In this document: positions 110 to 20,073 of the stretch, piece after piece
How the letters are laid out: each line of letters opens with the position of its first letter
Position numbering within the stretch: position 1 is the first letter of the stretch
Notes under the pieces: model-generated
What the model was told of the DNA's origin: nothing
Database searches by the model: none
What the model saw: the letters and a program-made list of their open reading frames with translations, nothing else
Made by a program: the position numbers and the translations under genes
Assembly: GCA_016929595.1 (NCBI GenBank)
Contig: JAFGIN010000159.1
Location: 1 to 64,000 of the forward strand
DNA length: 64,000 bases
Reading direction: 5' to 3'
Source: Chitinispirillaceae bacterium
GTDB lineage: Bacteria; Fibrobacterota; Chitinivibrionia; Chitinivibrionales; Chitinispirillaceae

Positions 110-1975
110 TCATTTTACCAGGGTAATAGAGCGACTGCATTGGGTCTTTCCTCTGGAAAATCCCATGATAAAATAATTCCCGTCAGACAGATCGGGAATA
201 TGACAGTTGATTGAATTATAGCCTTTATGTGTATAGCCATTGAAGACCTGATCAATCAGCCTGCCTCTTATATCGAAAATATAAAAAGACAGTTGTGTTG
301 CCTGGGGGGATTGATAGTGTATTGTAAGTTCAGACATTTCGGAATACTGAATACCATAGATACCAGAAAAAGATTCTTGTAACTGATTTCGCTTTAATGA
401 AACCTGACCATCAGGATAAAGGTCGATCTTCTGATTAACAGAAGATCCAATCTGGAACCAGTCAAAATCAGCAATGCCTCCAGTACTCCTGGTTGCAAAG
501 TTAAAAAGAGCAAAACGGTATCCCATAAAATGTGCAAGATCGTAGGACATCTGAAGAGTATTGCCAATTGCTTTCCAGGTGGTACTGTCGGTGCTGTAGA
601 AGAAGGTCGCTTTATCAGTTTTATTAGAGAAGTTCATGTCGATTCGAAGATAAATTTTGTTTTGTGAAAGTGTTGCAGTTGCGACCTGTGTTGCACCATT
701 GTTCATGACAACGGTATTTATGGTTCCATTCCGTTTTACTGCAACAAAACCGTATTTCGCCTGCAATGCTGCAAGTCCTGCACAATCGCCATCCTTGAGC
801 CCGCTCACATCCAGGGAGATCCGGCCAGAACATTTGGGACCAAATGACCTTTGAGTAAGGGTATTTCGTGCATTGAGAAAGCTATTATCAACTCGTCCGG
901 TTTTGATACGGTAATATCCCGGTCGTTGGGTAAGCGACCTGTTTGCATTGTCAGGATTATGATTGATCTGCCATTCGAGTTTTAATGTGGTATCGGAGAA
1001 ATTGTCAGAAGTTACACATCCGGAAGTATCTCCGGAAGAAACAGATGGTAAGGTAAAGCTAACCGGAGCAGTACCATCACTGAATACCGGCCAGTCATTC
1101 TTCCATGTTACCGGCATAATCCAGGGACTGCGTCCGACAGCACCATTGTCCTGGAAAAGATATCCTATCCAGCTGCTGTCTTTCATCTGTAAAATACTCC
1201 CCTGGGCTACTCCATTACTTTTTAATACAACTTTTGATTCAAACGTTCCGGTAAGTGATTTTCCTCTGGAACAGATCTGAGTCCGCATGCCACCACTGGG
1301 CCAGCAGATATTGAAAACGTAATAGTATCCATTATGCTTGTAAACCTGGGACCCTTCAGCCCGCAAGCCACCGGCACCCGCAACTGATGCCGGATCGGTA
1401 AGAAGCACTTTGTTAAGTCCACCGGATTTGACACTGGTAAGATCTGCATTCAGTTCAATAATACGTATGTTTCCATTACCGAATACTACATAGTTTTTAC
1501 CGTCATCATCAAGGATCAGTGATGGGTCATGCCAGTTGGGTAATCTGGTTTCTTTCCAGTTCCCGTTGCAGATATCATTCGTTGTGTAAAGATGTGAATT
1601 TCCTGTTGTTTGCGAGAACGTTAGAACATAGTAAATGCCATTTCTGTAACGGAAGCTGCTGGCCCACGTTCCTTTACCATATGCATTTTTACCATTGGCA
1701 AGGTTAAGCATATCATTACTGGCCAGGATGGAGTAACAGTACGAGACTGTTTTCCAATGCACCATATCATCCGATTCCATAATTGGTACTCCGGGAGTCA
1801 TATGCATAGTGGTCTGACTCATATAATATTTGTCAGCTACGCGGATGATAGAAATATCAGGAATGTCAGCATACAATATGGGGTTTGTAACGTTTGCGGC
1901 ATATCCTGCAGGGGTATTGATAAATCCTGAAAACAGTCCAATAAGTAAGACTAAATATGTTAATTGCTTTATCAT
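110..1975 (-). CDS. Secreted GH43 glycoside hydrolase with C-terminal Por-like sorting domain
   Basis: The 621-aa protein starts with a signal peptide (about residues 1-26, ending in AGYA). The five-bladed GH43 propeller follows, with the usual triad visible: base D40 in ADIPDIS, pKa modulator D150 in WHDPSLILDDDG and acid E207 in LRAEGSQ. Residues about 310-515 look like the concanavalin-like domain found C-terminal in GH43 xylosidases and arabinofuranosidases. The last 80 residues (FYIFDIRGRLI, then DGNYFIMGF) resemble a Por/T9SS C-terminal domain, so export to the cell surface is inferred. Activity is probably beta-xylosidase or alpha-L-arabinofuranosidase; the subfamily (GH43_12-like) is a guess. 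It is divergent from a second GH43 gene and may share its regulation. Confidence 0.88.
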   Translation of the reverse strand: MIKQLTYLVLLIGLFSGFINTPAGYAANVTNPILYADIPDISIIRVADKYYMSQTTMHMTPGVPIMESDDMVHWKTVSYCYSILASNDMLNLANGKNAYGKGTWASSFRYRNGIYYVLTFSQTTGNSHLYTTNDICNGNWKETRLPNWHDPSLILDDDGKNYVVFGNGNIRIIELNADLTSVKSGGLNKVLLTDPASVAGAGGLRAEGSQVYKHNGYYYVFNICWPSGGMRTQICSRGKSLTGTFESKVVLKSNGVAQGSILQMKDSSWIGYLFQDNGAVGRSPWIMPVTWKNDWPVFSDGTAPVSFTLPSVSSGDTSGCVTSDNFSDTTLKLEWQINHNPDNANRSLTQRPGYYRIKTGRVDNSFLNARNTLTQRSFGPKCSGRISLDVSGLKDGDCAGLAALQAKYGFVAVKRNGTINTVVMNNGATQVATATLSQNKIYLRIDMNFSNKTDKATFFYSTDSTTWKAIGNTLQMSYDLAHFMGYRFALFNFATRSTGGIADFDWFQIGSSVNQKIDLYPDGQVSLKRNQLQESFSGIYGIQYSEMSELTIHYQSPQATQLSFYIFDIRGRLIDQVFNGYTHKGYNSINCHIPDLSDGNYFIMGFSRGKTQCSRSITLVK

Positions 1976-2182: not shown

Positions 2183-2291
2183 GACTTTTTAATTCTTTAA
2201 TTAAAATCCAACCGCAATGTATGCTATATTATTTAGAAATAGTGAAGTCCAATTTATAATAACCGTTTTTTTACTACAGATTGGAACAGGG

Positions 2292-3827
2292 ATGAAAATC
2301 GGAAAAATAGTTAGTGTGTCTATGTATGGTCTGCTTGCAATTATTAACTCAGGGGCTGTTTTTGCCGACAATCCAATTATCTCACACAAATTTACCGCCG
2401 ATCCTAATGCGATGGTGTGGAACGGCAGGGTGTATGTCTATTGCTCTCGTGATGATAATAACAAAGGTGAGGCTTACGATATCATCGATTACACTTTGAT
2501 TTCGTCAGACGATATGGTGAACTGGACTGATCACGGAGAGGTTTTCAAAGTGCCACGTGATGCATCATGGGCAAATCGTGCCTATGCCCCCGGATGTGTT
2601 GAAAGGGAAGGAAAATTTTACCTTTATTTTCCTGATGGAGGCTCTTCAATTGGCGTTGCTGTGGGAGAGAAGCCTGATGGACCATTCAAAGATGCTCTGG
2701 GGAAAGCGATAGTCAGTAAAAGCATGCCTAATTGCGATGTGGAATGGCTGTTCGATCCAGCTGCTTATATTGATGATGATGGGCAGGCATATCTTTATTT
2801 TGGAGGCGGGCAGAATACAGCTGGGACAAATCTCAGGGTGATCAAATTAAATGAGGATATGATCTCAACTTCCGGAACTGCGGTAACTATAAAGGCTCCA
2901 AAATCGTTCGAAGCAGCTTTCGTACATAAGTTCAACAATAAGTATTACTTTACGTATTCGACCGACTTTTCAAATGGGGCCGCCAAAATAGACTATATGA
3001 TAAGTGACAATCCCATGACCGGTTTTACACACAAGGGAACTGTGTTGCCAAATCCACCTAAAAATAAGGGCAATAACAACCATGCTTCAATTGTGGAATT
3101 CAAGGACAAGTGGTATATCTTCTATCACGATCGATGTATCAGTAATGAGGTCTATACACGAAGTGTTAATGTTGATGTTGTTACCTATAATACCGACGGG
3201 ACAATGAAACAGACTTCATGTACTGTTGCCGGACCTTCTCAAGTAAAAAATCTAAACCCTTACGATACCATTCAGGCTGAAACAATGAATAAACAGAAGG
3301 GTATTAAAACCGATATATGCAGCGATGGTGGCATCATGCTGACCAGTATTTCCGATGGAGATTATACTAATATTTCGGGTGTTGATTTTGGTACTGGTGC
3401 TGCAAAATTCGAAATCCGGGCAGCAAGCGCTGCGAGTGGGGGGACAATTGAACTGCGCCTTGGAAGTGTAACGGGAACACTGGCAGGAACCTGCACAATT
3501 GATGGAACCGGTGGCTGGACTACCTGGAAGAACTTTTCCTGTGAAGTGTCCGGTGCTTCCGGAGTAAAGGATCTTTACCTGGTTTACAAAGGCTCAGGTG
3601 AGCCATATCGTCTGAACTGGTATCTGTTTTCTGATGGAAAAACCGGGGTAAAAGCAGCTGGCTTACGCAATGACCCAACTAATAAATGTCAGAGCAGACG
3701 TTTACTGTCTATTGACAATAAATCAGGGATTTCAGGTGGAAATCGAATGCATGACATATCTGGGAGAACTGTTACGAAGCATAACACAGTTACTAAAATG
3801 AGTGATGGCATTTATATACTCAAATGA
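2292..3827 (+). CDS. Secreted GH43 hydrolase with CBM6-like module (arabinoxylan arabinofuranohydrolase type)
   Basis: The reading frame is open from 2217, but ATG at 2292, just after AACAGGG, begins a normal signal peptide (MKIGKIVSVS to VFA), giving 511 aa. The GH43 propeller shows base D37 (FTADPNAMV), D155 (FDPAAYIDDDG) and acid E207 (SFEAAFVHKF). From about residue 340 a CBM6-like beta-sandwich begins (IQAETMN, then LRLGSVTGTLAGTCTI, ending NWYLF). A short, apparently degraded Por-like tail closes the protein (MHDISGRTV, DGIYILK). This architecture matches arabinoxylan arabinofuranohydrolases that trim side chains from xylan. It probably works outside the cell with the divergent GH43 enzyme. 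Confidence 0.88.
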   Translation: MKIGKIVSVSMYGLLAIINSGAVFADNPIISHKFTADPNAMVWNGRVYVYCSRDDNNKGEAYDIIDYTLISSDDMVNWTDHGEVFKVPRDASWANRAYAPGCVEREGKFYLYFPDGGSSIGVAVGEKPDGPFKDALGKAIVSKSMPNCDVEWLFDPAAYIDDDGQAYLYFGGGQNTAGTNLRVIKLNEDMISTSGTAVTIKAPKSFEAAFVHKFNNKYYFTYSTDFSNGAAKIDYMISDNPMTGFTHKGTVLPNPPKNKGNNNHASIVEFKDKWYIFYHDRCISNEVYTRSVNVDVVTYNTDGTMKQTSCTVAGPSQVKNLNPYDTIQAETMNKQKGIKTDICSDGGIMLTSISDGDYTNISGVDFGTGAAKFEIRAASAASGGTIELRLGSVTGTLAGTCTIDGTGGWTTWKNFSCEVSGASGVKDLYLVYKGSGEPYRLNWYLFSDGKTGVKAAGLRNDPTNKCQSRRLLSIDNKSGISGGNRMHDISGRTVTKHNTVTKMSDGIYILK

Positions 3828-4589: not shown

Positions 4590-5897
4590 TCAGAAAAAGA
4601 ATGCACATCGTAGCATGAAATACCAGTCTTTCGTGCGTGGGACCATCTCTCTGTACAATCGTTTACCTGCGAGAAGATAGGTCGCTCTTGATGAATGGTC
4701 ACTTGCTATTTGTCCGCTGAAACAAACATGTTTCACTGTCTTTGAAGCATAAACAGACCACTTCCAGTCATCATCATGCTTTGCTTTCCATTCCGAATAA
4801 TAATCCATTCCTGTCTGCGTATTAAAATCCGGTACGGGTGAATTGGCTTTCCAGATAAAATGATAGGAGTTCATATAAGGGCTGGGAAAGTATTCTCCTT
4901 CCAAAGCAAGAACATCAAGTAATTTAAAGGCCGGGAAATTAAATCCAAACATAATCGGGGTTCGCTCCCGGCGATTGCTGTACCATCCAGGATAATTTTT
5001 GATGCCAAGAATCGCCAACTCACCATATATTTTAAGATCGTTTTCACCAAGTATGGTTGACCCGAAAAAATGTTTCGGGTCAAGTGTGACGGCGCAGACA
5101 GCTTTTGTTCCCCTGAATGTGTAGTCTGTTTTAACACCCGAAACACTATCTGTAAATGAGGTCATCGTTGGATAGTACGATCTGTTCTTTGCCGGAGTTA
5201 CCCTGTTTGGATAAAATGGTACAAGGTGATAGAATGATATCCCCATTGACATATTAAGAAATGATCCTATAGTCGCGTATCCCAGCAATGCGGATAATGA
5301 CAGGTCTAAAGTGGGGTAGCATTCAGTTTCAGTGTTTAAAAAAATGTCAGCATTCAACCTGCCTGAAGGCAACTGTTTACGGTATCCTGTATGCATTCCG
5401 GCCAGCTTGGATTTATCTGCTATTTCAAACCCACTTACCAGCAGAGGCGGATATGCATTACTTCTGAAAAGATATTCACCGAGGTTCATGGCCTCCGCAT
5501 TATACTTTACAGGAAAGTACCCGAATTCACTTATGACTGTATCATTAAGGCCAGTGTTCCAGATCGTTTTTATCGATAGGTCAAGTAAGGATATGGAAAA
5601 GTATTTCTGAAGTTGTTCGGCATTATCCGAACCCATTGCGATACCCACAACCGGAAAGAAAAACGAGCTCATGATATGGACATGGCAGGTACTTCGGAAT
5701 GTTACAGGTGCAGTGACTTTGATGCCGGCCTGAATATCAGTAAGCCATTGCTGATCAAAGTTGACAACTGTTGCATTTTTATCCGGTTCCGAACTCTGAA
5801 CCTGTCCCATTGTCAGCCAGCCCCATCCGGAAATGGCTGGTTTGGTTTTTTCATCTGACATTGCGGGTATTGCCAGTAGCATTGAGAGCAGTAGCAT
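4590..5897 (-). CDS. Predicted outer-membrane beta-barrel-like protein, third gene of cytochrome cassette
   Basis: From ATG 5897 the product is 435 aa with a short hydrophobic leader (LLLSMLLAIPAMS). It is rich in alternating aromatic/polar strands (GWGWLTMGQ, SISLLDLSIKTIWN, FGYFPVKYN, DWYFMLRCAFFF), and the terminal aromatic stretch suits an outer-membrane barrel. I recognise no named family. The frame runs upstream to 6008, overlapping the cytochrome gene, but that extension is not signal-like and 5897 leaves a 49-bp gap. No strong SD is visible, so the start is uncertain. Its place behind two secreted haem proteins suggests a role in anchoring or exporting them. Confidence 0.55.
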   Translation of the reverse strand: MLLLSMLLAIPAMSDEKTKPAISGWGWLTMGQVQSSEPDKNATVVNFDQQWLTDIQAGIKVTAPVTFRSTCHVHIMSSFFFPVVGIAMGSDNAEQLQKYFSISLLDLSIKTIWNTGLNDTVISEFGYFPVKYNAEAMNLGEYLFRSNAYPPLLVSGFEIADKSKLAGMHTGYRKQLPSGRLNADIFLNTETECYPTLDLSLSALLGYATIGSFLNMSMGISFYHLVPFYPNRVTPAKNRSYYPTMTSFTDSVSGVKTDYTFRGTKAVCAVTLDPKHFFGSTILGENDLKIYGELAILGIKNYPGWYSNRRERTPIMFGFNFPAFKLLDVLALEGEYFPSPYMNSYHFIWKANSPVPDFNTQTGMDYYSEWKAKHDDDWKWSVYASKTVKHVCFSGQIASDHSSRATYLLAGKRLYREMVPRTKDWYFMLRCAFFF

Positions 5898-5946
5898 TTT
5901 TGGTGTCTGCTTAACTATTGAGGGACATTTTGAACAGTTGCAATGT

Positions 5947-7869
5947 TTAGAGTGAAAGAATGTATTGAACAAGATGATCAAATTCCTCTTTTGAGAGATT
6001 GTTGACATTTCTGGAGTGACCGGTTTGCCTGAGATTTATTTCTACAGTTTCATGCGATCCGATATGATTGTATGGACCTGTGCGCCAGCATTCAATAAGT
6101 GACGGGGTGTCCCAGTCAAATGACGGATCATAATCGTCAAAAGTACCGGCATTCGCTTTTCTCAGATTTGTAAAGAGCGGCGCCGGATGGCAATGTACGC
6201 AATCAAGTTTATCAGCATCATAGTAAATTTCTTTACCTTTCAGGGCTGATTCGCTCAGCCTTCCTTTAACAAGTTTGGGACTTGGTACCGGTTTGAGACG
6301 CATGAGAAAGGTGTCTAATGCAATACTTGTCTGGGCATCCGGTTCTACCTGTAATTCGAGTCGAATACCTGAACGTACAGATTCATATGCATTATCGCGC
6401 TTGCAGCCCCAGTTGGCCGGAGGTGTTTGAAATGTAAAAAGCATGCTTTTTGCATTTTTAGGCGAGCTCAGATAAGAATCAGAAAGGATCCAGTTCAATC
6501 CATCCGGACGTGTAAAGGGATGACAGGAGTGACAGGATTGCCAGTGGCCGACACAAAGATTTGCATCATAAAAATAGCTCTCACCCTTGCGTTCTGCTGT
6601 GAGTTTTTTTTCTTCCCCTGCCAGAGGATATTTTGTAACAGAAATACTGGAGTCTTCCAAGTCAATCATATTTATCGATTGAGAGAAGTAACCGGTAAAA
6701 TATACTTTCGAGCCTGCAGTTACAATACTCCGTGGACTCCGTGCCTGTGCAATCACTGTTTTTTTCAAATCACGTATAAATGAAAAATCATGCGATACAT
6801 CTCCTTTCCCTTCAAGTTTCTTAAACATTGAAGGCATATCGATGATCGTTATTATATCATACCCTGCGTGAATCACACAGAGCCACTTTGAATTATCGGT
6901 GCAAGCGGCACTCCATGGATTGGCGAATCCATGGATATTATCATCAAGCTCAATATCGTTAAAGAGCGCTTTCTTTTCCATATCTACTATTGCGAGGTTG
7001 TTGGAGTGAACCCACCCCTGTTCCAACGTAACAGCCGGCAGGTTGACCCGGCCAATCAGATGTGGTATGAAGGCATATTTTTTTTCCGGAGATAAACAGA
7101 TGTTCATAGTCGAATGGCTGCCATCGGGAAGTCTGATTATTTTTTCAATCTCTCCGCTCGATGTGTTGATAAAACATACTTTGCAGGTCATTGTTGTATC
7201 TGTCGAGATGCCATCGGGAATCATATTTGCGACCAGCAGTGATGCGTTATCGGTAGTAAGTGCCAGAGAATATGGTTCTTTTATTGCAGCAACACGTTTG
7301 ATCTCTTTTTGAGCAGAAAGGTCGATGAAAGAGATGGTATTTTCAAGCCAGTTGCAAACATAGAGCATACTGTTATCTGAATTGAGGATCGGTGAACGGG
7401 CCATATGGCCGACAGGAATACGTTTTTTAATAATACCGTCTGCATTGTTAATAACACATACCATTCCATTGGGCCAGCGTTCTGATGCGCACGTTACATA
7501 CAGGTGAGAACCATCAGATGAGACTGCGATTCCGGTGGGTTCATTGGGAAGCTGAATCGATCGGACAACGTTGTTTGAACTTACCGAATAAAGGTCAACC
7601 TTTTTTGCTGTTTGCTCGCAAATGTAGATGTGTTTTTTATCAGGAGAAAGAATCATTGCTGATGGTGAAAGATATTTCGGCTTCTGCAATGACTCCAGAT
7701 CTCCATTTAATGCAAGAAGCTCATATACGAGAGCAGGGGAGACTATTGAACGTTCATTATTATTTGCTAATAAGATCTGAAAAAGTACCATTACCGCAAA
7801 CGTAATAAAAAAATACTTTGTTACTACTGTTTTATACGTAGTGCAGATTTTATTTACTATTTTATGCAT
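5947..7869 (-). CDS. YVTN beta-propeller protein with di-haem cytochrome c domain
   Basis: The N-terminal 370 residues form YVTN/NHL-like propeller blades (MILSPDKKHIYICEQ, GIAVSSDGSHLYVT, SLALTTDNASLLVAN). The C-terminal part has two CxxCH haem c sites: CHSCH near residue 448 and CVHCH near 557. The layout resembles MauG/di-haem peroxidase-like domains fused to propellers, which are periplasmic or surface redox proteins. An uncleaved or cleaved hydrophobic segment (YFFITFAVMVLFQILLA) gives export. ATG 7869 is my choice; a TTG at 7896 overlaps the upstream stop codon (TTGA) and has no SD. The preceding gene is almost certainly cotranscribed. The electron donor and substrate cannot be read from sequence. 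Confidence 0.8.
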   Translation of the reverse strand: MHKIVNKICTTYKTVVTKYFFITFAVMVLFQILLANNNERSIVSPALVYELLALNGDLESLQKPKYLSPSAMILSPDKKHIYICEQTAKKVDLYSVSSNNVVRSIQLPNEPTGIAVSSDGSHLYVTCASERWPNGMVCVINNADGIIKKRIPVGHMARSPILNSDNSMLYVCNWLENTISFIDLSAQKEIKRVAAIKEPYSLALTTDNASLLVANMIPDGISTDTTMTCKVCFINTSSGEIEKIIRLPDGSHSTMNICLSPEKKYAFIPHLIGRVNLPAVTLEQGWVHSNNLAIVDMEKKALFNDIELDDNIHGFANPWSAACTDNSKWLCVIHAGYDIITIIDMPSMFKKLEGKGDVSHDFSFIRDLKKTVIAQARSPRSIVTAGSKVYFTGYFSQSINMIDLEDSSISVTKYPLAGEEKKLTAERKGESYFYDANLCVGHWQSCHSCHPFTRPDGLNWILSDSYLSSPKNAKSMLFTFQTPPANWGCKRDNAYESVRSGIRLELQVEPDAQTSIALDTFLMRLKPVPSPKLVKGRLSESALKGKEIYYDADKLDCVHCHPAPLFTNLRKANAGTFDDYDPSFDWDTPSLIECWRTGPYNHIGSHETVEINLRQTGHSRNVNNLSKEEFDHLVQYILSL

Positions 7870-7892
7870 ATGACAAGTTGTAAACTCCGGCT

Positions 7893-10625
7893 TCAATGAA
7901 TAATAAATCTAACAGCGTTACAATTTTCTCCTGATAGACTTTTTTGTGCTGAATTTGATACACTGAGGATATATGTTCCTTTAGCTAACGTATTCTGTGT
8001 CAGGTCGATATCAATAAGGGTATGGTGTTCATTGAAATGCCAGGTGTGAATTTTGCGCCCGGATAAATTATAAAGTGATGCATGCGAAATACCATTGTCC
8101 TGATTATTTATAAACAATTTTGACCCGTTATTGTGAATACTGATCCGTTTTGCAGGGCTTATTTTAATTGATGTAATATCTCCGGGAAGTGGATAGTCAA
8201 TCTCGATGCCTTGTGGATTTTTTGGATCTACATCGAGGCGTGGCCATACAAGTTTACCATTGCGCTGATTTGAGACGTTATATTCAGCACCAAGTTCCAT
8301 TGAATTAAGATCAAGCCACAGCGCCACTCTTTTATATTCATCTGTTGTTAATTTCACATTGTTATGAGCTCCATCGATATGTTTTTTGAGTGGTGCATAT
8401 GATGCTCCGAATTTTCCGGGAGTTGTCCTTGAACCACCTTTGATAGGGGTTTTTATATCGCCATTGATGAATGGATTTCCGTCTCCGCAGAAATAAAAAG
8501 CATATTTTTTTAAACTGCTGAAAGACATGTTAGGACCTTTCCCTTTTTCTGCATGGCATGACTTACAGTTTTTATCAAAAACAGGTTTTACCAGACGGGC
8601 AAAATTTACCGGTTCCACTCCTCCGGCATCAGGTGTTAAACTGGATGGTGCACGTTTAAATGCAATCCTGTTAGCGCTTACCGGTGTTGCCTTCCATTTG
8701 TTTTCATGGCAGCCGATACATGTCATCTGTTCACCTTCATGTACATAGGTTGCTGTACGCATCGACTGTACCGCCAGTCCTTTTTCGTCGAGTAGCTGAA
8801 AATAGAGAATTTTTCCGACAGGTGCTTCACAATAAACACTACCGTCGGATTCAACCGGAACAGTTCCCAGAGACATTCTCGCAAGTGCTTCTGCAGGATA
8901 TCCGTTTCGTGGATCACTGATCAGTTTGGTTTCTTTTGGAAAGACCTGCACAATTCTCATTGCAGAAACTTTCGTTCCTGCTGGAAGTGGAATGTCCCCC
9001 TCATACACGTCACTTACCTTAATTGTCGCACGGTAATGTCCTTTTTCATTTTTGCGTTCACCTTGCCAGGTTGCAGTTGCAAGAGCCTGGGGTTTGTTTC
9101 TGGGTTTTACAGGAATTGGGTCAATCGGCATCCATGAACTACTACTGTATATAAGCTGTTCGCTGCCGAATCTGTCGCGAAGGATTATTGTTTTGTTTTT
9201 ATTACAAATGTAATAATCTTCACTGAGCGGCCAGGCTGTTCCATAGGGCCCCGAAGCATCGGGCCAGTTGTTCCAGACTGATGTAATTCGTTTTACCTGT
9301 GAGACTTTGTTATCGTCTTCAATTGTGGGATCGATCATGATAAGTTCACCAAAAGAGTATCCATGGTGAGCTGTCGCTGTCGCAATGTACTTGTGAGAAT
9401 TCGGTATCGCACGGATATTTAATTCTGCAATCGGCCTGCTGAACCTTCCATCACTCCAGTTACTACCGGTAAAGGTCTGCAATGGTAACGGATAATTTCC
9501 ATGGTGTGAACGGGGATCACGGCCATCAGGGTAACAGGTCCATAAATGGTGTGCAATACAATCATCACGATCGACATAATCCCATCGGGTGTAAACAATC
9601 TTTCCATTATTGTCTACACTGGGATGCCATTCGTTGGTTTCATGGTAACTTAAACAGATAATATCACTTCCATCATCTTTCATGGAATGCAAAGTAAAGG
9701 TCGGTTTGCCTTTTGTATGACAGCGTCCATATCCTCCTCTGCGATCTGATATAAAAACAATACGTCCGCCTGGCAGCCATATCGGGTCAAAATCGTTATG
9801 ATTTGAATTCTGCAGGAAATTATTCTCCAGTGAAACTCCATCAGTAAGCTGAGTCAGATTTGTTCCATCAATATTAACTTTGAAGATGTGGTAACATTTG
9901 TTCGTTTTCGGGGACCAGGAAAAAAGGATTGTTTTTCCATCATAGGAAAGATCGGGTGAGAGGAATGCGCCTCCCGAGAGATTTGATCCCTTGAAGGAAC
10001 CATTAACGCAGCTGGAGTTTTTGAGCACGTCGATTAGCTGTGGCTTTGATGTTTTAACATCTTTTAACATGTAAAGACCGCCGCCAACGTTGATATTCCA
10101 GGGATTATACTGGCAGCACATGTGCTTTTCATTATTTGGAAAATAATACCCGACAAAGAGAATAGAATCAAAATCCATCAGCGGGTTGTCCATCGCTATT
10201 GCACGGTTGAGTGCAGCCAGTTCGATATATTGTTCCTTATCTCCGGATAAACTCTCTGCTGATGTCTTAGAAAGTGTTCTTATTGCCTGAGGCTGGAAAT
10301 TTTCCAGAAGACGTTGATAAAAGGCAATACGAGGAGAGGGGTTCTGACGTTTGAGATCCTGCAGAAGAAGCCTGGTCCGTCGTAACAGGATATCATAGGG
10401 GGTTCGGTCACCAGGAAGAATCAGGGTGTTGGTGTCAAAAGCATCACTTTCTTTGACTGAACTTTTTTTCAGGCTGCTGCTGTTGCCAATAACCTTCTGG
10501 TGCAGTTCCTCATATTGCTGTTCCCAGTATTCTCTCTGGAGCGGGGTACTTTCAATGGCGTTGCCGAAGACGTCAGAATTAACCAATGTAATAATAATAA
10601 ATTGAAAAACAAAAAAAATTCTCAT
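7893..10625 (-). CDS. HzsA-related propeller di-haem cytochrome with C-terminal Por-like domain
   Basis: The 910-aa protein has a signal peptide, an N-terminal helical region and WD40/TolB-like blades (FLSPDLSYDGKTILFSW, DFDPIWLPGGRIVFISDRRGG, HPSVDNNGKIVYTRWDYVDRD). Two haem c sites follow, CIGCH near residue 635 and CKSCH near 688. This order is that of the hydrazine synthase alpha-subunit-like family, whose members are widespread outside anammox bacteria and mostly uncharacterised. The last 90 residues (ASLYNLSGRKIHTW, KGTYILSVSN) look like a Por/T9SS-type sorting domain, so surface location is inferred. It is the first gene of a three-gene unit. Hydrazine synthesis itself is not supported, as no HzsB/HzsC partner is seen. 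Confidence 0.82.
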   Translation of the reverse strand: MRIFFVFQFIIITLVNSDVFGNAIESTPLQREYWEQQYEELHQKVIGNSSSLKKSSVKESDAFDTNTLILPGDRTPYDILLRRTRLLLQDLKRQNPSPRIAFYQRLLENFQPQAIRTLSKTSAESLSGDKEQYIELAALNRAIAMDNPLMDFDSILFVGYYFPNNEKHMCCQYNPWNINVGGGLYMLKDVKTSKPQLIDVLKNSSCVNGSFKGSNLSGGAFLSPDLSYDGKTILFSWSPKTNKCYHIFKVNIDGTNLTQLTDGVSLENNFLQNSNHNDFDPIWLPGGRIVFISDRRGGYGRCHTKGKPTFTLHSMKDDGSDIICLSYHETNEWHPSVDNNGKIVYTRWDYVDRDDCIAHHLWTCYPDGRDPRSHHGNYPLPLQTFTGSNWSDGRFSRPIAELNIRAIPNSHKYIATATAHHGYSFGELIMIDPTIEDDNKVSQVKRITSVWNNWPDASGPYGTAWPLSEDYYICNKNKTIILRDRFGSEQLIYSSSSWMPIDPIPVKPRNKPQALATATWQGERKNEKGHYRATIKVSDVYEGDIPLPAGTKVSAMRIVQVFPKETKLISDPRNGYPAEALARMSLGTVPVESDGSVYCEAPVGKILYFQLLDEKGLAVQSMRTATYVHEGEQMTCIGCHENKWKATPVSANRIAFKRAPSSLTPDAGGVEPVNFARLVKPVFDKNCKSCHAEKGKGPNMSFSSLKKYAFYFCGDGNPFINGDIKTPIKGGSRTTPGKFGASYAPLKKHIDGAHNNVKLTTDEYKRVALWLDLNSMELGAEYNVSNQRNGKLVWPRLDVDPKNPQGIEIDYPLPGDITSIKISPAKRISIHNNGSKLFINNQDNGISHASLYNLSGRKIHTWHFNEHHTLIDIDLTQNTLAKGTYILSVSNSAQKSLSGENCNAVRFIIH

Positions 10626-14400: not shown

Positions 14401-17400
14401 TTGGCTATGTCTTTCATCTCACGACCTGTCGTTCGATTCATCCCGCTTTCAATGCTGTTTTTAGTATTTGCGTGTTATTTCAAGAATTCCAACCCGTTAG
14501 ATCCCGATTCGAAGGACTACAGGTCTCCATCTTTCGAGTTGCAATCTGATAGCGGGTATGTTAAAGAGGGTGACACAGTGCACAGAACTTCGGCCAGACT
14601 TTCCTGTAAAGGCAATAGGGATGAGTGTCTCTTTCAGATAAAATTGAATGACGGAGACACAACTGCATGGCAGTCTGAAGGAATATTTCTGCTTGAAGGA
14701 TTGAAAGATACAGTGCAGAATGTGATTGTAAACTGTAAATATAGAGGTGGAATTGAAAAGTTTACAAAAAGTGTTATATTTTATGTTTTGACAGATAATT
14801 ACATTCCGAAATTCAGCTCTGTTCAAGACACAACCATATATGTAACCTCGGATTCGCTGCAGCGTCTGATACTGTCAGTGCTTGTCACCGGTTCAACGCC
14901 GATCTCATTTCAGTGGTACAAGGATACTACGATTATTCATGGACAGGTACAAAATGATTTACTCATAAAAAATTTCGGTAGTAAGGATACAGGCGTTTAC
15001 TATTGTATCGCAGCAAACGAGTATGATACAGTAAAAGGACCGCCAATGCGCGTTATAGTTGGAACAATTCCAGCATATGTTACGATTACCTACGACGGAA
15101 ACGGCAATACCTCTGGTGATGTTCCTTTCGATGCAAATACCTACTCTGAAGGCTCAACGATTACTGTCAAGATGAATGTTGGAAATCTCGAAAAAACGAG
15201 CTTTATTTTCAATGGCTGGTATACACAGGTTGATGGAGGTGGAATCTCTTATTTTCCCCCCGGCGCTGAGATAAAAAATGCGAGGTCTGATATTATTCTT
15301 TATGCATCATGGAGTAAAATCAGAAAATACAGTCTCCAATATCTAGAAAACGAAGCAACATCAGGAAAGCCTCCCGTTGATGCAAATCAGTACGATTCCG
15401 GTGCGGGTGTTATCGTAATGGGAAATATCGGGTCGCTGAAAAAAGAGAATTATACCTTCGTGGGATGGAATACGGCTGCAGATAACAGCGGTGTCAACTA
15501 CCATCCTGGGGTTAAATTAATAATACATAATGAGAATGTGAGGCTGTATGCCAAATGGACTCAGCGTCCTGTATGTAAAGTTGTTTATGATGGTAATGGA
15601 AATAGTGCAGGTACAGTTCCTGTTGATACAAATTCTTACGAAATCGGTTCAAAAATTCTAACTAAAAATGCTGGTGATCTTGTCAGAACCGATGGATACT
15701 CATTCATAGGTTGGAATACGCTTAAAGACGGGAATGGTACTTTTTATGGCGTAAACTTTGAAATACAATTAATTGACACAGTTACAATACTCTATGCTAA
15801 TTGGACAAAAGACAGTACTTTTTCTATAACATATAATGGCAATGGTAATACATCGGGCGAACCACCTGTTGATGAAAATGATTATAAAATGGGTGCTTTT
15901 GCAATATTGAAAGCAAATGAATCAGGTTTGGCACGTGCAGGATACCGTTTCAGAGGATGGTGTACTGATAATGATGGAGCCGGCAAAATTTATTCGCCCT
16001 CTGATACTATAACGATATTGGGGCCTACTGTTTTTTTTGCAAACTGGTATCAGATTGTTACCTTCAATGTAGTTTACAATGGCAATGGGAATACTTCAGG
16101 AACTGTTCCTGTTGATACTATGCAATATGAGGCTGGCAGTAATATAAGGGTTCATCAGAACTACAATGGATTAAAAAAGGATTCTTTTGTATTTGCGGGA
16201 TGGAATACTGCCAGTGATGGGAATGGAACACAGGTGTACCCAGGGAGTTTTCTGACTGTTGATTCATCAATAACGTTGTATGCACGCTGGACACAGAGCG
16301 CAACAATCTCAGTTACCTACAATGCAAATGGAAGCACATCAGGAGTTGCTCCTGTGGACAGCAACAGATACATTTCTGGCGCATCTGCAAAGGTGAAGCT
16401 CAATTCCGGCAATCTTTCCAAAGCTGGTTTTTCGTTTGTCGGATGGACAACACAAGCCGATGGTTCAGGTATTTCATATGCCACTGAAGAAACATTTACG
16501 GTAACTCAAAATGTAACTCTTTATGCAAAATGGTCGAAAAATGTTACATTCAATGTTACCTATAATGGAAATTCAAATACTGAAGGCACTGTACCAGTTG
16601 ATGCCAACGCTTATGAATCGGGATTTACAGCTATTGTAAAAGGAAATACAGGAAATCTTTCCCGTGACGGATATAAATTTACCGGATGGAATCGTAATGC
16701 TGATGGCTCCGGGACAGTTTATACATCAAATTCTGAAATGAAAATTGATACAAGTAATGTTGTTCTGTATGCTGTCTGGACTAAAATGTCAACCGAAACA
16801 TTTAAAGTATACTACTTCGGAAACAGCAATACTGGTGGTAGTATTCCCACAGATAATTCACACTACACTAAAGGCACCTATGCGAGGGTGTTATCGAATT
16901 CCGGGCATCTGGTTAAAACCGGATATCTGTTTGCCGGATGGAGTACAGGGGCTTCAGAAACAATCGATAACCTTTTCATGCCCGGAGACCAGATAGAAGT
17001 TACTGATACTGTCAAACTTTATGCTGTCTGGACACAAGATGAACTTTTCAAAGTAATATACATGCCCAATGGAGCAGCAAGCGGCACTGTACCTTATGAT
17101 GAAAATGCATATCTCCTGGGAATATCTGTTACGGTTAAAGGTAATTCCGGAAATCTTGAAAAGACGGGAAGTACTTTTTCTGGGTGGAATACAAAAAGTG
17201 ATGGAAAAGGTGATACGTATACTGAAAATACCCAATTCGTAAAGAATTCAAAAGATGATACACTGTATGCAAAATGGAGTGAAAATCCAACATACAGTAT
17301 TACTTACTTCAGCAATAACTCTACATCAGGTCGTCCACCTTCTGATGTTAATACCTATGAAACTGGTGTTACCGTCACTGTAAAGCACAATAGCGGGAAT

Positions 17401-20073
17401 CTGGTTCGGATGGGATATGAATTTATCGGATGGAATACCAGAAGTGATGGAAGTGGAGATGCTTATGCCGGCGGCACTGCATTAAAAATGCCATCAGGGA
17501 ATCTTTCCCTTTATGCTGACTGGAAATTAATACCGACATTCACTGTAAAGTACGATGGAAACGGAAACACCGCAGGAACAGTTCCTTTGCCAGAAACATA
17601 TCAAAGAGGCCAGCTCTTTTGGGTAAAGGGTAACACTGGATTACTCCAGAAGGATAATTTGAATTTCAGTGGATGGAATACACTTTCAAACGGTTCCGGT
17701 GATTTTTATGCTGCGGGTTCAATGTTTCCCATACATTCAGATATAACTCTTTATGCAATCTGGACCAGTAGCCCAATATTTACAGTTACTTATAACGGTA
17801 ATGGAGCAAACCACGGGAACGTTCCTGTAGATGGGAACCAATACAGGCAGGGGGGAAATGTTCAGGTAAAGGCTAACACTGGCGGCCTTGCCAGGAATGG
17901 GTTTTTATTTTCCGGATGGAGTACCAGCAGTGCCGGTTCAGGAACATTTTACGCTCCCGGAGCTTATTTTACTATGGGAAGTTCTAATGTTATATTGTGG
18001 GCTGTCTGGACACCTTATTTTACCGTTAACTATACAGGTAATGGAAACACCTATGGATCTTCTCCGATTGATACAACGAAATATAAGAGTGGGGAGATTG
18101 CAGTAATCCTGGGACAAAGCAGTATACTGAAGGATGGGTTTACCTTCTCGAACTGGAATACACTGCATGATGCAAAAGGAAAGTTCTATAAACAGAACGA
18201 TACAATGATTATTGGTTATAGTTCAATATACCTGCATGCTGCATGGAAGGCAACTGTTACGTTCGATGGACAGGGGGCGACTTCCGGGCCAAACCCTTCA
18301 ACTGTTTCGCTGTATCATCCCGATACAGTATTATCATCGTTACCAGCCGATCCTTCGAGGACAGGCTATACATTTGCGGGGTGGTATACGGCTGAGAGTG
18401 GCGAAACTCAGTTTACTTCGCGTACAAAAGTAACTGGAGACAGAACTGTTTATGCGCGATGGAACATAAACCAGTACACATTAACCTATGATGGGAATAA
18501 CAGTACTGGCGGCACTGCACCTGCTGGCGGAGAGTACAATTATAACTCAACCCTGCCTGCGGCATCCAATACGTTTATACGAGATGGATATATATTTACA
18601 GGGTGGAATACTGCTGCCAATGGAAGTGGAACATCGTATTCTGAGGGTGATGATATTACAATAACCGCCAATACCATTCTGTACGCTCAGTGGTCTGCCC
18701 TTTTGAAATATACAGTCAGGTACAATGGAAATGGACATACCGGAGGTAGTGTACCTGGAGACGATTCTACTTATGTGAGTGGAGAGACCGCTCTTGTGCT
18801 GGGGAATACTGGTTTACTGGTCAAAGCTGATTCACTATTTGAAGGCTGGTCCAGGGTTGAGGGAAGTGGTAATCTTTACAAAAGTGGCGATACGCTGATC
18901 ATTGGTTCCTCGAATATTACTTTGTATGCACGATGGATTAAAAGTGCATCTCTGGCAATAACCGGATTCCGTTTTACCAATCCGGATGCTCAGGGAGAAA
19001 TCAATGAAAACACAAAAACGATCACCATAAGAGTACCGTACGATACCGACAGATCGGCATTGATCGCAACCTTTACAGCTACGGGAGCATCTGTGAGGAT
19101 CGGTTCTGTTATACAAGTAAGCAATGTTACTCCAAATGACTTCTCAAATCCGGTGACCTATACTGTTTACGCCGCTGATAACAGCACTCAGGAATATGTG
19201 GTAACGGTGACTGAATCATCAGCCAGTAGCAATGCAGATCTTTCAGCACTAACGATCAGTACCGGCACATTGATTCCGTCATTCTCTGCTGCAACGACCT
19301 CTTATGCTGTTGATGTGGAGTACTCCGTATCTTCCATTATTCTGACAGGTACCAGTGAAGATCAAAATGCTTCAATCAGCGATAATAGCGGTGTGGCGCA
19401 ATCTTTGACAGTTGGGGAAAATGCCATTACTTTAACAGTGACCGCCCAGAATGGGACCACTACAAAAGACTACGTTATAAACGTTAGACGGGCTTTTGCA
19501 CCCGTCTCCTTTTCAGAACTGATCGCAAACGGTGAATCTGGAAAGGTAACTACTACTGAGCTGACACTCACTTTTAATGTAAACCCGACCACATTGACTG
19601 AAAGCAATATAACACTGACTGGTGCAACAAGGGGAGCATTAACCGGTACGGGTTTAACGAGAACTTTAGTGATATCGAACATAACTGTAGCGGATGGTCA
19701 GGTTGTTACTGTTGCAATTTCAAATCCGCCGGGTTATGAGATTACAGGATCACCACGGACTATAGCTGTGTACAAGGCTCCAACAACTGTAAATTTTTCC
19801 GCATTAGAAGCGAACGGGGCATCAGGTGAAATTACCACAACAGAATTAAAAATTACCTTTGATACAGATCCCACCACCTTGACTGCCGCAGACATCACGA
19901 TCGTGGGTGCTGTTATGGGACAGTTAAGCGGTACCGGTACCAGTCGAATAGTAACACTTACAAGTATTGATGTAGCCAATGGTAAAAATGTAAAGGTAAC
20001 AATTACAAATCCGACAGGCTTTACAATTTCGCCACCGAACCGGGTTGTTTCTGTGTTTGTCAGGTCGGAATGA
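14401..20073 (+). CDS. Giant surface lipoprotein: Ig-like domain, 16 InlB B-repeats, cadherin-like and tandem C-terminal domains
   Basis: The 1,890-aa product starts at TTG 14401, six bases after GGAGG; ATG 14407 is the alternative. A lipobox (VFAC) is followed by NSNPLDPDS, a lipoprotein start similar in style to the one at 38893. An Ig-like domain (YKDTTIIHGQ, DTGVYYCIAAN) leads into 16 repeats of about 80 residues. These are the Listeria-Bacteroides InlB B type (YNGNGNTSGTVPVD, then FAGWNT, LYAKWT). Next come an FN3/cadherin-like beta-sandwich (ADLSALTIS, TTSYAVDV, TTKDYVINVRR) and two copies of a roughly 95-residue domain (FSELIANGESGKVTTTELTLTF and FSALEANGASGEITTTELKITF). InlB-type repeats mediate adhesion or act as stalks, so surface attachment to substrate, host or partner cells is inferred. 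It has no enzymatic domain. Confidence 0.85.
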   Translation: MAMSFISRPVVRFIPLSMLFLVFACYFKNSNPLDPDSKDYRSPSFELQSDSGYVKEGDTVHRTSARLSCKGNRDECLFQIKLNDGDTTAWQSEGIFLLEGLKDTVQNVIVNCKYRGGIEKFTKSVIFYVLTDNYIPKFSSVQDTTIYVTSDSLQRLILSVLVTGSTPISFQWYKDTTIIHGQVQNDLLIKNFGSKDTGVYYCIAANEYDTVKGPPMRVIVGTIPAYVTITYDGNGNTSGDVPFDANTYSEGSTITVKMNVGNLEKTSFIFNGWYTQVDGGGISYFPPGAEIKNARSDIILYASWSKIRKYSLQYLENEATSGKPPVDANQYDSGAGVIVMGNIGSLKKENYTFVGWNTAADNSGVNYHPGVKLIIHNENVRLYAKWTQRPVCKVVYDGNGNSAGTVPVDTNSYEIGSKILTKNAGDLVRTDGYSFIGWNTLKDGNGTFYGVNFEIQLIDTVTILYANWTKDSTFSITYNGNGNTSGEPPVDENDYKMGAFAILKANESGLARAGYRFRGWCTDNDGAGKIYSPSDTITILGPTVFFANWYQIVTFNVVYNGNGNTSGTVPVDTMQYEAGSNIRVHQNYNGLKKDSFVFAGWNTASDGNGTQVYPGSFLTVDSSITLYARWTQSATISVTYNANGSTSGVAPVDSNRYISGASAKVKLNSGNLSKAGFSFVGWTTQADGSGISYATEETFTVTQNVTLYAKWSKNVTFNVTYNGNSNTEGTVPVDANAYESGFTAIVKGNTGNLSRDGYKFTGWNRNADGSGTVYTSNSEMKIDTSNVVLYAVWTKMSTETFKVYYFGNSNTGGSIPTDNSHYTKGTYARVLSNSGHLVKTGYLFAGWSTGASETIDNLFMPGDQIEVTDTVKLYAVWTQDELFKVIYMPNGAASGTVPYDENAYLLGISVTVKGNSGNLEKTGSTFSGWNTKSDGKGDTYTENTQFVKNSKDDTLYAKWSENPTYSITYFSNNSTSGRPPSDVNTYETGVTVTVKHNSGNLVRMGYEFIGWNTRSDGSGDAYAGGTALKMPSGNLSLYADWKLIPTFTVKYDGNGNTAGTVPLPETYQRGQLFWVKGNTGLLQKDNLNFSGWNTLSNGSGDFYAAGSMFPIHSDITLYAIWTSSPIFTVTYNGNGANHGNVPVDGNQYRQGGNVQVKANTGGLARNGFLFSGWSTSSAGSGTFYAPGAYFTMGSSNVILWAVWTPYFTVNYTGNGNTYGSSPIDTTKYKSGEIAVILGQSSILKDGFTFSNWNTLHDAKGKFYKQNDTMIIGYSSIYLHAAWKATVTFDGQGATSGPNPSTVSLYHPDTVLSSLPADPSRTGYTFAGWYTAESGETQFTSRTKVTGDRTVYARWNINQYTLTYDGNNSTGGTAPAGGEYNYNSTLPAASNTFIRDGYIFTGWNTAANGSGTSYSEGDDITITANTILYAQWSALLKYTVRYNGNGHTGGSVPGDDSTYVSGETALVLGNTGLLVKADSLFEGWSRVEGSGNLYKSGDTLIIGSSNITLYARWIKSASLAITGFRFTNPDAQGEINENTKTITIRVPYDTDRSALIATFTATGASVRIGSVIQVSNVTPNDFSNPVTYTVYAADNSTQEYVVTVTESSASSNADLSALTISTGTLIPSFSAATTSYAVDVEYSVSSIILTGTSEDQNASISDNSGVAQSLTVGENAITLTVTAQNGTTTKDYVINVRRAFAPVSFSELIANGESGKVTTTELTLTFNVNPTTLTESNITLTGATRGALTGTGLTRTLVISNITVADGQVVTVAISNPPGYEITGSPRTIAVYKAPTTVNFSALEANGASGEITTTELKITFDTDPTTLTAADITIVGAVMGQLSGTGTSRIVTLTSIDVANGKNVKVTITNPTGFTISPPNRVVSVFVRSE
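15075..18937 (+). repeat. Sixteen tandem InlB B-repeat coding units
   Basis: The units average about 241 bp. Each encodes a YxGNGxTxGxxPxD opening, a central GYxFxGWNT and an LYAxW close. They are conserved as protein but clearly diverged as DNA, so they are old duplications rather than recent copies. Units 14 and 15 have a different opening (ATVTFDGQGATSG and QYTLTYDGNNSTGG) with shortened middle parts, like the classical Listeria form. Confidence 0.8.

Follow-up and report, generated by a model that had tools for sequence, protein, structure and literature searches.

What do relatives of hydrazine synthase (HZS) do in a bacterium that degrades plant fibre? HZS is the hallmark enzyme of anaerobic ammonium-oxidising (anammox) bacteria and had been considered unique to them, and its relatives elsewhere are without known function. 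The question is raised by a locus in a 64,000-nucleotide stretch of contig JAFGIN010000159.1 (the whole stretch is called the window here) from the genome of a Chitinispirillaceae bacterium (6.6 Mb, 95% complete), a plant-fibre-degrading member of the Fibrobacterota without any of the respiratory oxidases that we tested for; similar cassettes occur in Bacteroidota, among them Parabacteroides, a genus of the gut. Three minus-strand open reading frames (ORFs), A, BG and BB, lie head to tail, overlapping or almost abutting (Table 1), a tight trio that an earlier interpretation of the letters alone (the sequence-only reading) had already noticed. Our results suggest that the HZS fold has been reused for another redox job in polysaccharide breakdown, because the active sites are altered and an outer-membrane porin gene adjoins the HZS-like genes in a polysaccharide degrader without the tested oxidases. 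More specifically, we give an even chance to the cassette being a repurposed relative of HZS alpha, beta and gamma that forms a four-haem envelope redox complex during the attack on hemicellulose.

Gene A has the architecture of the HZS alpha subunit, with a TolB/PD40-type propeller, the HZS middle domain and a C-terminal cytochrome domain in this order, followed by a type IX secretion system (T9SS) tail. A profile of 18 gene A relatives matched residues 48-765 of Kuenenia HZS alpha (5c2v_A) with E=5e-47, and the alignment, at profile positions 168-776, covers most of the chain. The haem alpha-I segment, CIGCHENKW, carries a Trp at the place of the haem-ligating Kuenenia alpha-Tyr591, a position that holds Trp, Thr, Asn, Leu and other residues in the 54 relatives examined. 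In addition, alpha-Cys303, a Zn ligand in HZS, is not kept in the family alignments. The Por-like C-terminal domain seen earlier on this protein was confirmed with TIGR04183 (24.0 bits, cut-off 23), a model that matches 11 of the 18 relatives as well. Since a SprA-like ORF is present on contig C34 of the same genome (445 bits with neighbouring pieces), gene A combines the sorting tail with a genomic SprA, as T9SS cargo does. The source genome contains five HzsA-like genes; further ones are located on contigs C193, C45 and C50, several of them without a BG nearby.

The second gene had been described as a YVTN-propeller cytochrome. The propeller and the two haem motifs are indeed there, but its identity as a fused HZS beta-gamma protein had been overlooked: the gene is more than a YVTN cytochrome, because a profile of 13 BG relatives matches 5c2v_B (E=8e-39) and then 5c2v_C (E=1.4e-19) in the correct order within one protein. 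Both the beta and the gamma subunit are thus represented in a single chain. BG itself matches the NCBIfam models for HZS beta (NF052340, 1.1e-26), fused betagamma (NF052342, 6.8e-23) and gamma (NF052341, 2e-6), all far under the curated cut-offs. In the 30 gamma domains compared, Cys102, Cys105 and His106 are kept throughout and Cys165 is found in none; the position of gamma-His144 is occupied by Trp in 22 of the 30 and by Ile or Val in seven. Trp at gamma-144 is the state of peroxidases and MauG and has also been seen in HZS-like clades I-III (PMC12758564). BG has two CxxCH domains and the conserved Trp, as di-haem proteins of the MauG/CcpA type do, and TIGR03791 and TIGR04039 match 6/13 and 12/13 members of its family, respectively, with the window BG under the TIGR04039 cut-off. 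The assignments of the sequence-only reading, HzsA-like and MauG-like, with the motif pairs CIGCH/CKSCH and CHSCH/CVHCH, are therefore supported by family-profile matches to the 5c2v chains that far exceed chance and by the presence of both pairs.

The partners found with these two genes are informative: a porin, T9SS and xylan enzymes as well as a chorismatase and haem-c maturation of the cassette's own. Several genomes contain fuller operons with the order A-cl3-BG-BB-chorismatase-ResB-CcsB; cl3, a protein of about 275 aa with a T9SS tail, lies upstream of BG in 13 of 21 testable copies. Co-located alpha-like and betagamma-like genes, the mark of the HZS-like superfamily, are thus present. 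In the source genome, contig C193 carries such a fuller cassette, and contig C118 (G000:C118; L252 8569-13016) a trio of chorismatase, ResB and CcsB without an HZS-like gene nearby. We ruled out that this trio and the window cassette are halves of one split operon: the trio is nearest to cassette type L044 and not to L080/L086, the closest kin of the window. Another locus (L218, G038:C542) has in-frame stops in BG and CcsB and appears to be a decaying cassette, and its adjoining chorismatase looks intact.

The cassette chorismatase, which is located outside the window, matches Hyg5 (7e-30) and FkbO (2e-24) by its profile, has the chorismatase fold and carries the Hyg5-type segments SGTAS and VCR..LvEiEG (CR..L.E.E) instead of SATAG and IAR of FkbO. 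These segments presumably set the product of the enzyme. Hyg5-type enzymes yield 3-hydroxybenzoate (PMC7170507). The similarity to Hyg5/XanB2-type chorismatases (5ag3, 4bps) extends over the C-terminal half (profile 183-381); the known enzymes feed antibiotic or pigment pathways, whereas the cassette chorismatase is tied to genes for c-type cytochromes. A literature search on chorismatase, cytochrome and outer membrane returned nothing relevant.

In a comparison of 40 genomes from the order, CcsB was present in 14/14 genomes with BG and 5/26 without (Fisher p ~5e-7) and a full-length chorismatase in 12/14 and 2/26 (Fisher p ~1e-6), statistics that ignore the relatedness of the genomes. Both CcsB genes of the source genome lie in clusters that also contain chorismatase. 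Cytochrome bd, COX1-family (haem-copper) oxidase/NO reductase and NrfA were not detected in this genome, with positive controls that matched. Because of this co-occurrence and the lack of detected oxidases and NrfA, haem-c maturation in this organism seems to serve mainly the cassette system.

In Bacteroidota, Parabacteroides distasonis and Aureibacter tunicatorum have a BG (profile E ~1e-163 to 1e-170) that is immediately followed by a chorismatase-like gene; their HzsA-like protein (E 1e-129 to 1e-140) is joined to a SUMF1 domain. CcsA is also found with the Parabacteroides cassette, and no BB homologue was found at either. A, BG, chorismatase and Ccs therefore seem to be the core, and porin and T9SS tails the layer of the Fibrobacterota. 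An A-like gene of Phocaeicola H18 stands without further cassette genes in the surrounding 9 kb. Genes of the DhaK/DhaL/LsrF type recur by the Bacteroidota cassette (L228 22606-25188; L229 8824-11494), hinting at a linked carbohydrate pathway. L228 (NZ_OY725748.1) and L255 (OY725999.1) are labelled as Parabacteroides/Phocaeicola plasmids; L228 carries mfd and may be a mislabelled piece of chromosome.

With a MauG-like site and a possible source of phenols in the same clusters, BG might act in maturation as MauG and MbnH do: in A or some other exported protein it would build a quinone-like cofactor by oxidising either a bound phenolic precursor or an aromatic residue. The NCBIfam models MauG, MbnH and SAM_quin_mod match several BG relatives, the Trp at the gamma-His144 position is that of MauG/CcpA, and the chorismatase could supply the phenol. 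However, the window BG scores far under the curated cut-offs of these three models, no candidate acceptor protein was identified, and BG shares the betagamma architecture of HZS with its propeller, which MauG does not have. We regard this explanation as unlikely, and place it first among the alternatives.

The third protein had been predicted to be secreted and barrel-like, and this passed the check by modelling. The AlphaFold2 model of BB from 78 homologues (pLDDT 88.1, pTM 0.84), which supersedes a poor one from 12 sequences (pLDDT 59), shows 16 strands of membrane length, joined by short turns at one end of the barrel and by long loops at the opposite end, and a C-terminal Phe. The closest structures found with Foldseek were OmpM1, OmpF and OmpC (E ~1e-11 to 1e-8), which share with BB the 16 strands, the long loop after strand 5 and the C-terminal Phe; BB differs from them in having no detected sequence similarity and a Fibrobacterota motif of its own, NLGEYLFRSxxYP, in that loop. 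No Pfam or NCBIfam sequence family matches BB, and it has no haem motif. The BB family (L088-L165) is large, with members in 31 of 168 Fibrobacterota genomes, often about ten copies each and often in tandem arrays. This rules out BB as a protein of the cassette only: all 18 cassette-linked BBs fall within one clade of 19 rows (support 100) inside this porin family, and the 19th row begins at the edge of a contig. Of the 22 BG copies whose contig extends far enough, 18 have BB as the very next gene, in most cases at a distance of 10-165 bp. As to whether the three genes travel together in relatives, the outcome is mixed: HzsA-like genes often stand alone and BB comes from a large family, yet linkage between betagamma and porin genes is tight and the cassette porins form one clade. 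A T9SS-tailed di-haem peroxidase (DHOR, PF06537; L206 1747-4293) is encoded near one BG-BB pair.

A tailed cytochrome, an untailed cytochrome and a barrel within one operon could also be taken for an MtrCAB/PCC-like conduit, in which electrons would leave periplasmic BG by way of the BB barrel and reach cytochrome A at the surface. The sequence-only reading had likewise considered the passage of electrons across the outer membrane, a claim that our data do not support. BB is a 16-strand, OmpM1/OmpF-like porin with an L3-type loop and without a haem motif, most members of its family are not beside cytochromes, and the Bacteroidota cassettes retain chorismatase, BG and A without a barrel. Moreover, BG has two haems by a bulky propeller and not a haem wire inside a barrel; a large barrel sheathing a multihaem cytochrome, as in MtrCAB, was not found. 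The porin fold and the lack of BB in Bacteroidota thus disfavour a conduit through BB, which we consider improbable.

The proximity to polysaccharide hydrolases that had been pointed out earlier was borne out by two flanking glycoside hydrolase (GH) family 43 genes in the window and by xylan and glucuronoyl-ester enzymes by the relatives. Within 10 kb of cassettes we found GH43, GH10, GH30, GH5, GH95, a GH141 insertion domain, carbohydrate esterases including two CE15-type glucuronoyl esterases, and CBM6/35/4_9. None of these families was among the listed multi-hit families of 20 control stretches. The enrichment of carbohydrate-active enzymes is suggestive only, because the controls were unmatched and only families with several hits were listed.

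This neighbourhood bears on a further alternative, namely that the HZS-gamma/CcpA-like site serves to detoxify NO or peroxide in the envelope. The gamma-I site is CcpA/MauG-like, and a published model has HZS gamma-I reducing NO (PMC12607021). Such a function leaves the chorismatase, the T9SS tail, the porin and the hydrolase neighbourhood unexplained, and the several copies per genome do not speak for it, so that it is as improbable as the conduit. The weakest alternative, a true hydrazine synthase or another enzyme of the nitrogen cycle, has all three HZS subunits represented in its favour and is hardly credible: judged by its sequence the cassette is not a hydrazine synthase, because alpha-Tyr591, alpha-Cys303, gamma-Cys165 and gamma-His144 are lost and no HAO-type multihaem protein was found in the source genome (a weak negative, since the positive control gave no match), nor NrfA or an anammox context, and scores against the NCBIfam HZS equivalog cut-offs reached only 43/800, 93.8/560, 80.7/1250 and 27/625 bits.

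The likeness to anammox HzsABC (Kuenenia 5c2v) nevertheless includes the alpha architecture, the betagamma order, four CxxCH motifs at the same places and alpha and betagamma genes that are often adjacent; the betagamma fusion is common to BG and Scalindua HZS. The cassette differs in being remote, in lacking the HZS-specific ligands and in having a T9SS tail and, as partners, a porin, a chorismatase and ResB/CcsB. Beyond anammox bacteria, HZS-like pairs of alpha and betagamma genes have been reported from Planctomycetota, Desulfobacterota, KSB1 and others (Hagglund et al. 2025, PMC12758564; Suarez et al. 2023, PMC10732223). Clades I-IV of these studies resemble the cassette in pairing an alpha-like with a fused betagamma-like protein, in the loss of key residues and in the Trp at gamma-144, but their neighbours are FG-GAP/CRTAC1 or ABC-binding proteins. 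Compared by features and not by tree, the cassette keeps haem alpha-II with a His before LT..E in many copies and is without gamma-Cys165 and without N-terminal extra haems. The locus had been proposed as an undescribed system. Its general kind is already known, because such distant pairs are published; the form in Fibrobacterota and Bacteroidota, which combines porin and T9SS tail with chorismatase and System II (ResB/CcsB) maturation, was not described in the literature we searched.

In the envelope redox complex that we favour, A (alpha-like, two haems, exported by T9SS) and BG (two haems, MauG/CcpA-type site) would probably form a four-haem complex of the outer envelope adjoining the dedicated porin BB, and no hydrazine would be made. 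ResB and CcsB travelling with the cassette would serve haem attachment, the Hyg5-type chorismatase would be tied to the same system, and the gamma-like site might perform MauG/peroxidase-type electron chemistry during hemicellulose breakdown. The earlier suggestion of an envelope redox complex is supported in this form; that A and BG are physically associated and that A is located at the surface is what we infer. With less certainty, the redox chemistry may take part in the attack on glucuronoxylan or lignin-carbohydrate polymers, the chorismate-derived hydroxybenzoate might be a mediator, substrate or cofactor precursor, and BB could admit small reactants or products. It would be a long shot to see here a system that does anaerobically, without O2, what peroxidase-mediator systems do, with a surface HZS-like cytochrome complex that uses secreted chorismate-derived hydroxybenzoate to modify the lignin-carbohydrate linkages of xylan, and with a reduced form in gut Bacteroidota. 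With the partners described above, genes known only as HZS-like become accessible to testable biochemistry, which bears on the origin of the anammox enzyme.

Several observations weigh against this interpretation. The T9SS tail of the window gene A is only just above threshold and BG has none, so that the outer membrane might separate A from BG. Neither cl3 nor chorismatase nor ResB/CcsB is present in the window copy. Gene A lies upstream of BG on the same strand in only about half of the testable copies (10/21), and stand-alone A genes outnumber BG genes. Some cassettes have housekeeping neighbours, and the unmatched controls and the relatedness of the genomes limit the enrichment and the co-occurrence, respectively.

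Table 1. Features of the cassette and its flanks, in window positions.
Feature	Position	Strand	Evidence
Gene A, HZS-alpha-like, 910 aa	7893..10625	-	ORF; PF18582 E=3.5e-18; family profile vs 5c2v_A E=5e-47
HZS_alpha middle domain PF18582 in gene A	8703..8885	-	E=3.0e-18, above curated cut-off
Haem alpha-I motif CIGCH, gene A residues 636-640	8706..8720	-	alignments
Haem alpha-II motif CKSCH, gene A residues 687-691	8553..8567	-	
T9SS (Por) C-terminal sorting domain, gene A	7941..8126	-	TIGR04183 24.0 bits, cut-off 23
Gene BG, HZS beta-gamma-fusion-like, 649 aa	5947..7896	-	ORF; profile vs 5c2v_B + 5c2v_C
HZS-beta-like 7-blade propeller in BG	6664..7665	-	aligned to 5c2v_B residues 15-347
Gamma-I haem motif CHSCH in BG	6520..6534	-	invariant in 30/30 relatives
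BG Trp496, gamma-His144 position	6409..6411	-	Trp also there in cytochrome c peroxidase and MauG
Gamma-II haem motif CVHCH in BG	6187..6201	-	
Gene BB, 16-strand outer-membrane porin	4590..6008	-	AlphaFold2 model; Foldseek; clade support 100
Long conserved BB loop after strand 5 (L3 constriction-loop position), motif NLGEYLFRSxxYP	5409..5510	-	
GH43 with beta-xylosidase C-terminal domain and weak T9SS tail, flanks cassette	110..1975	-	
GH43 with CBM6, flanks cassette	2217..3827	+	

The ORF of BG starts with TTG and its real start is probably internal, with a signal peptide from about residue 10; the signal peptide of BB begins at residue 38, so that its likely start is near 5897. Internal starts would set the cassette genes a few dozen bases apart, as they are in the relatives. 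Elsewhere in the window, positions 14401-20073 encode a secreted protein of 1890 aa with many Listeria-Bacteroides (Flg_new) repeats.

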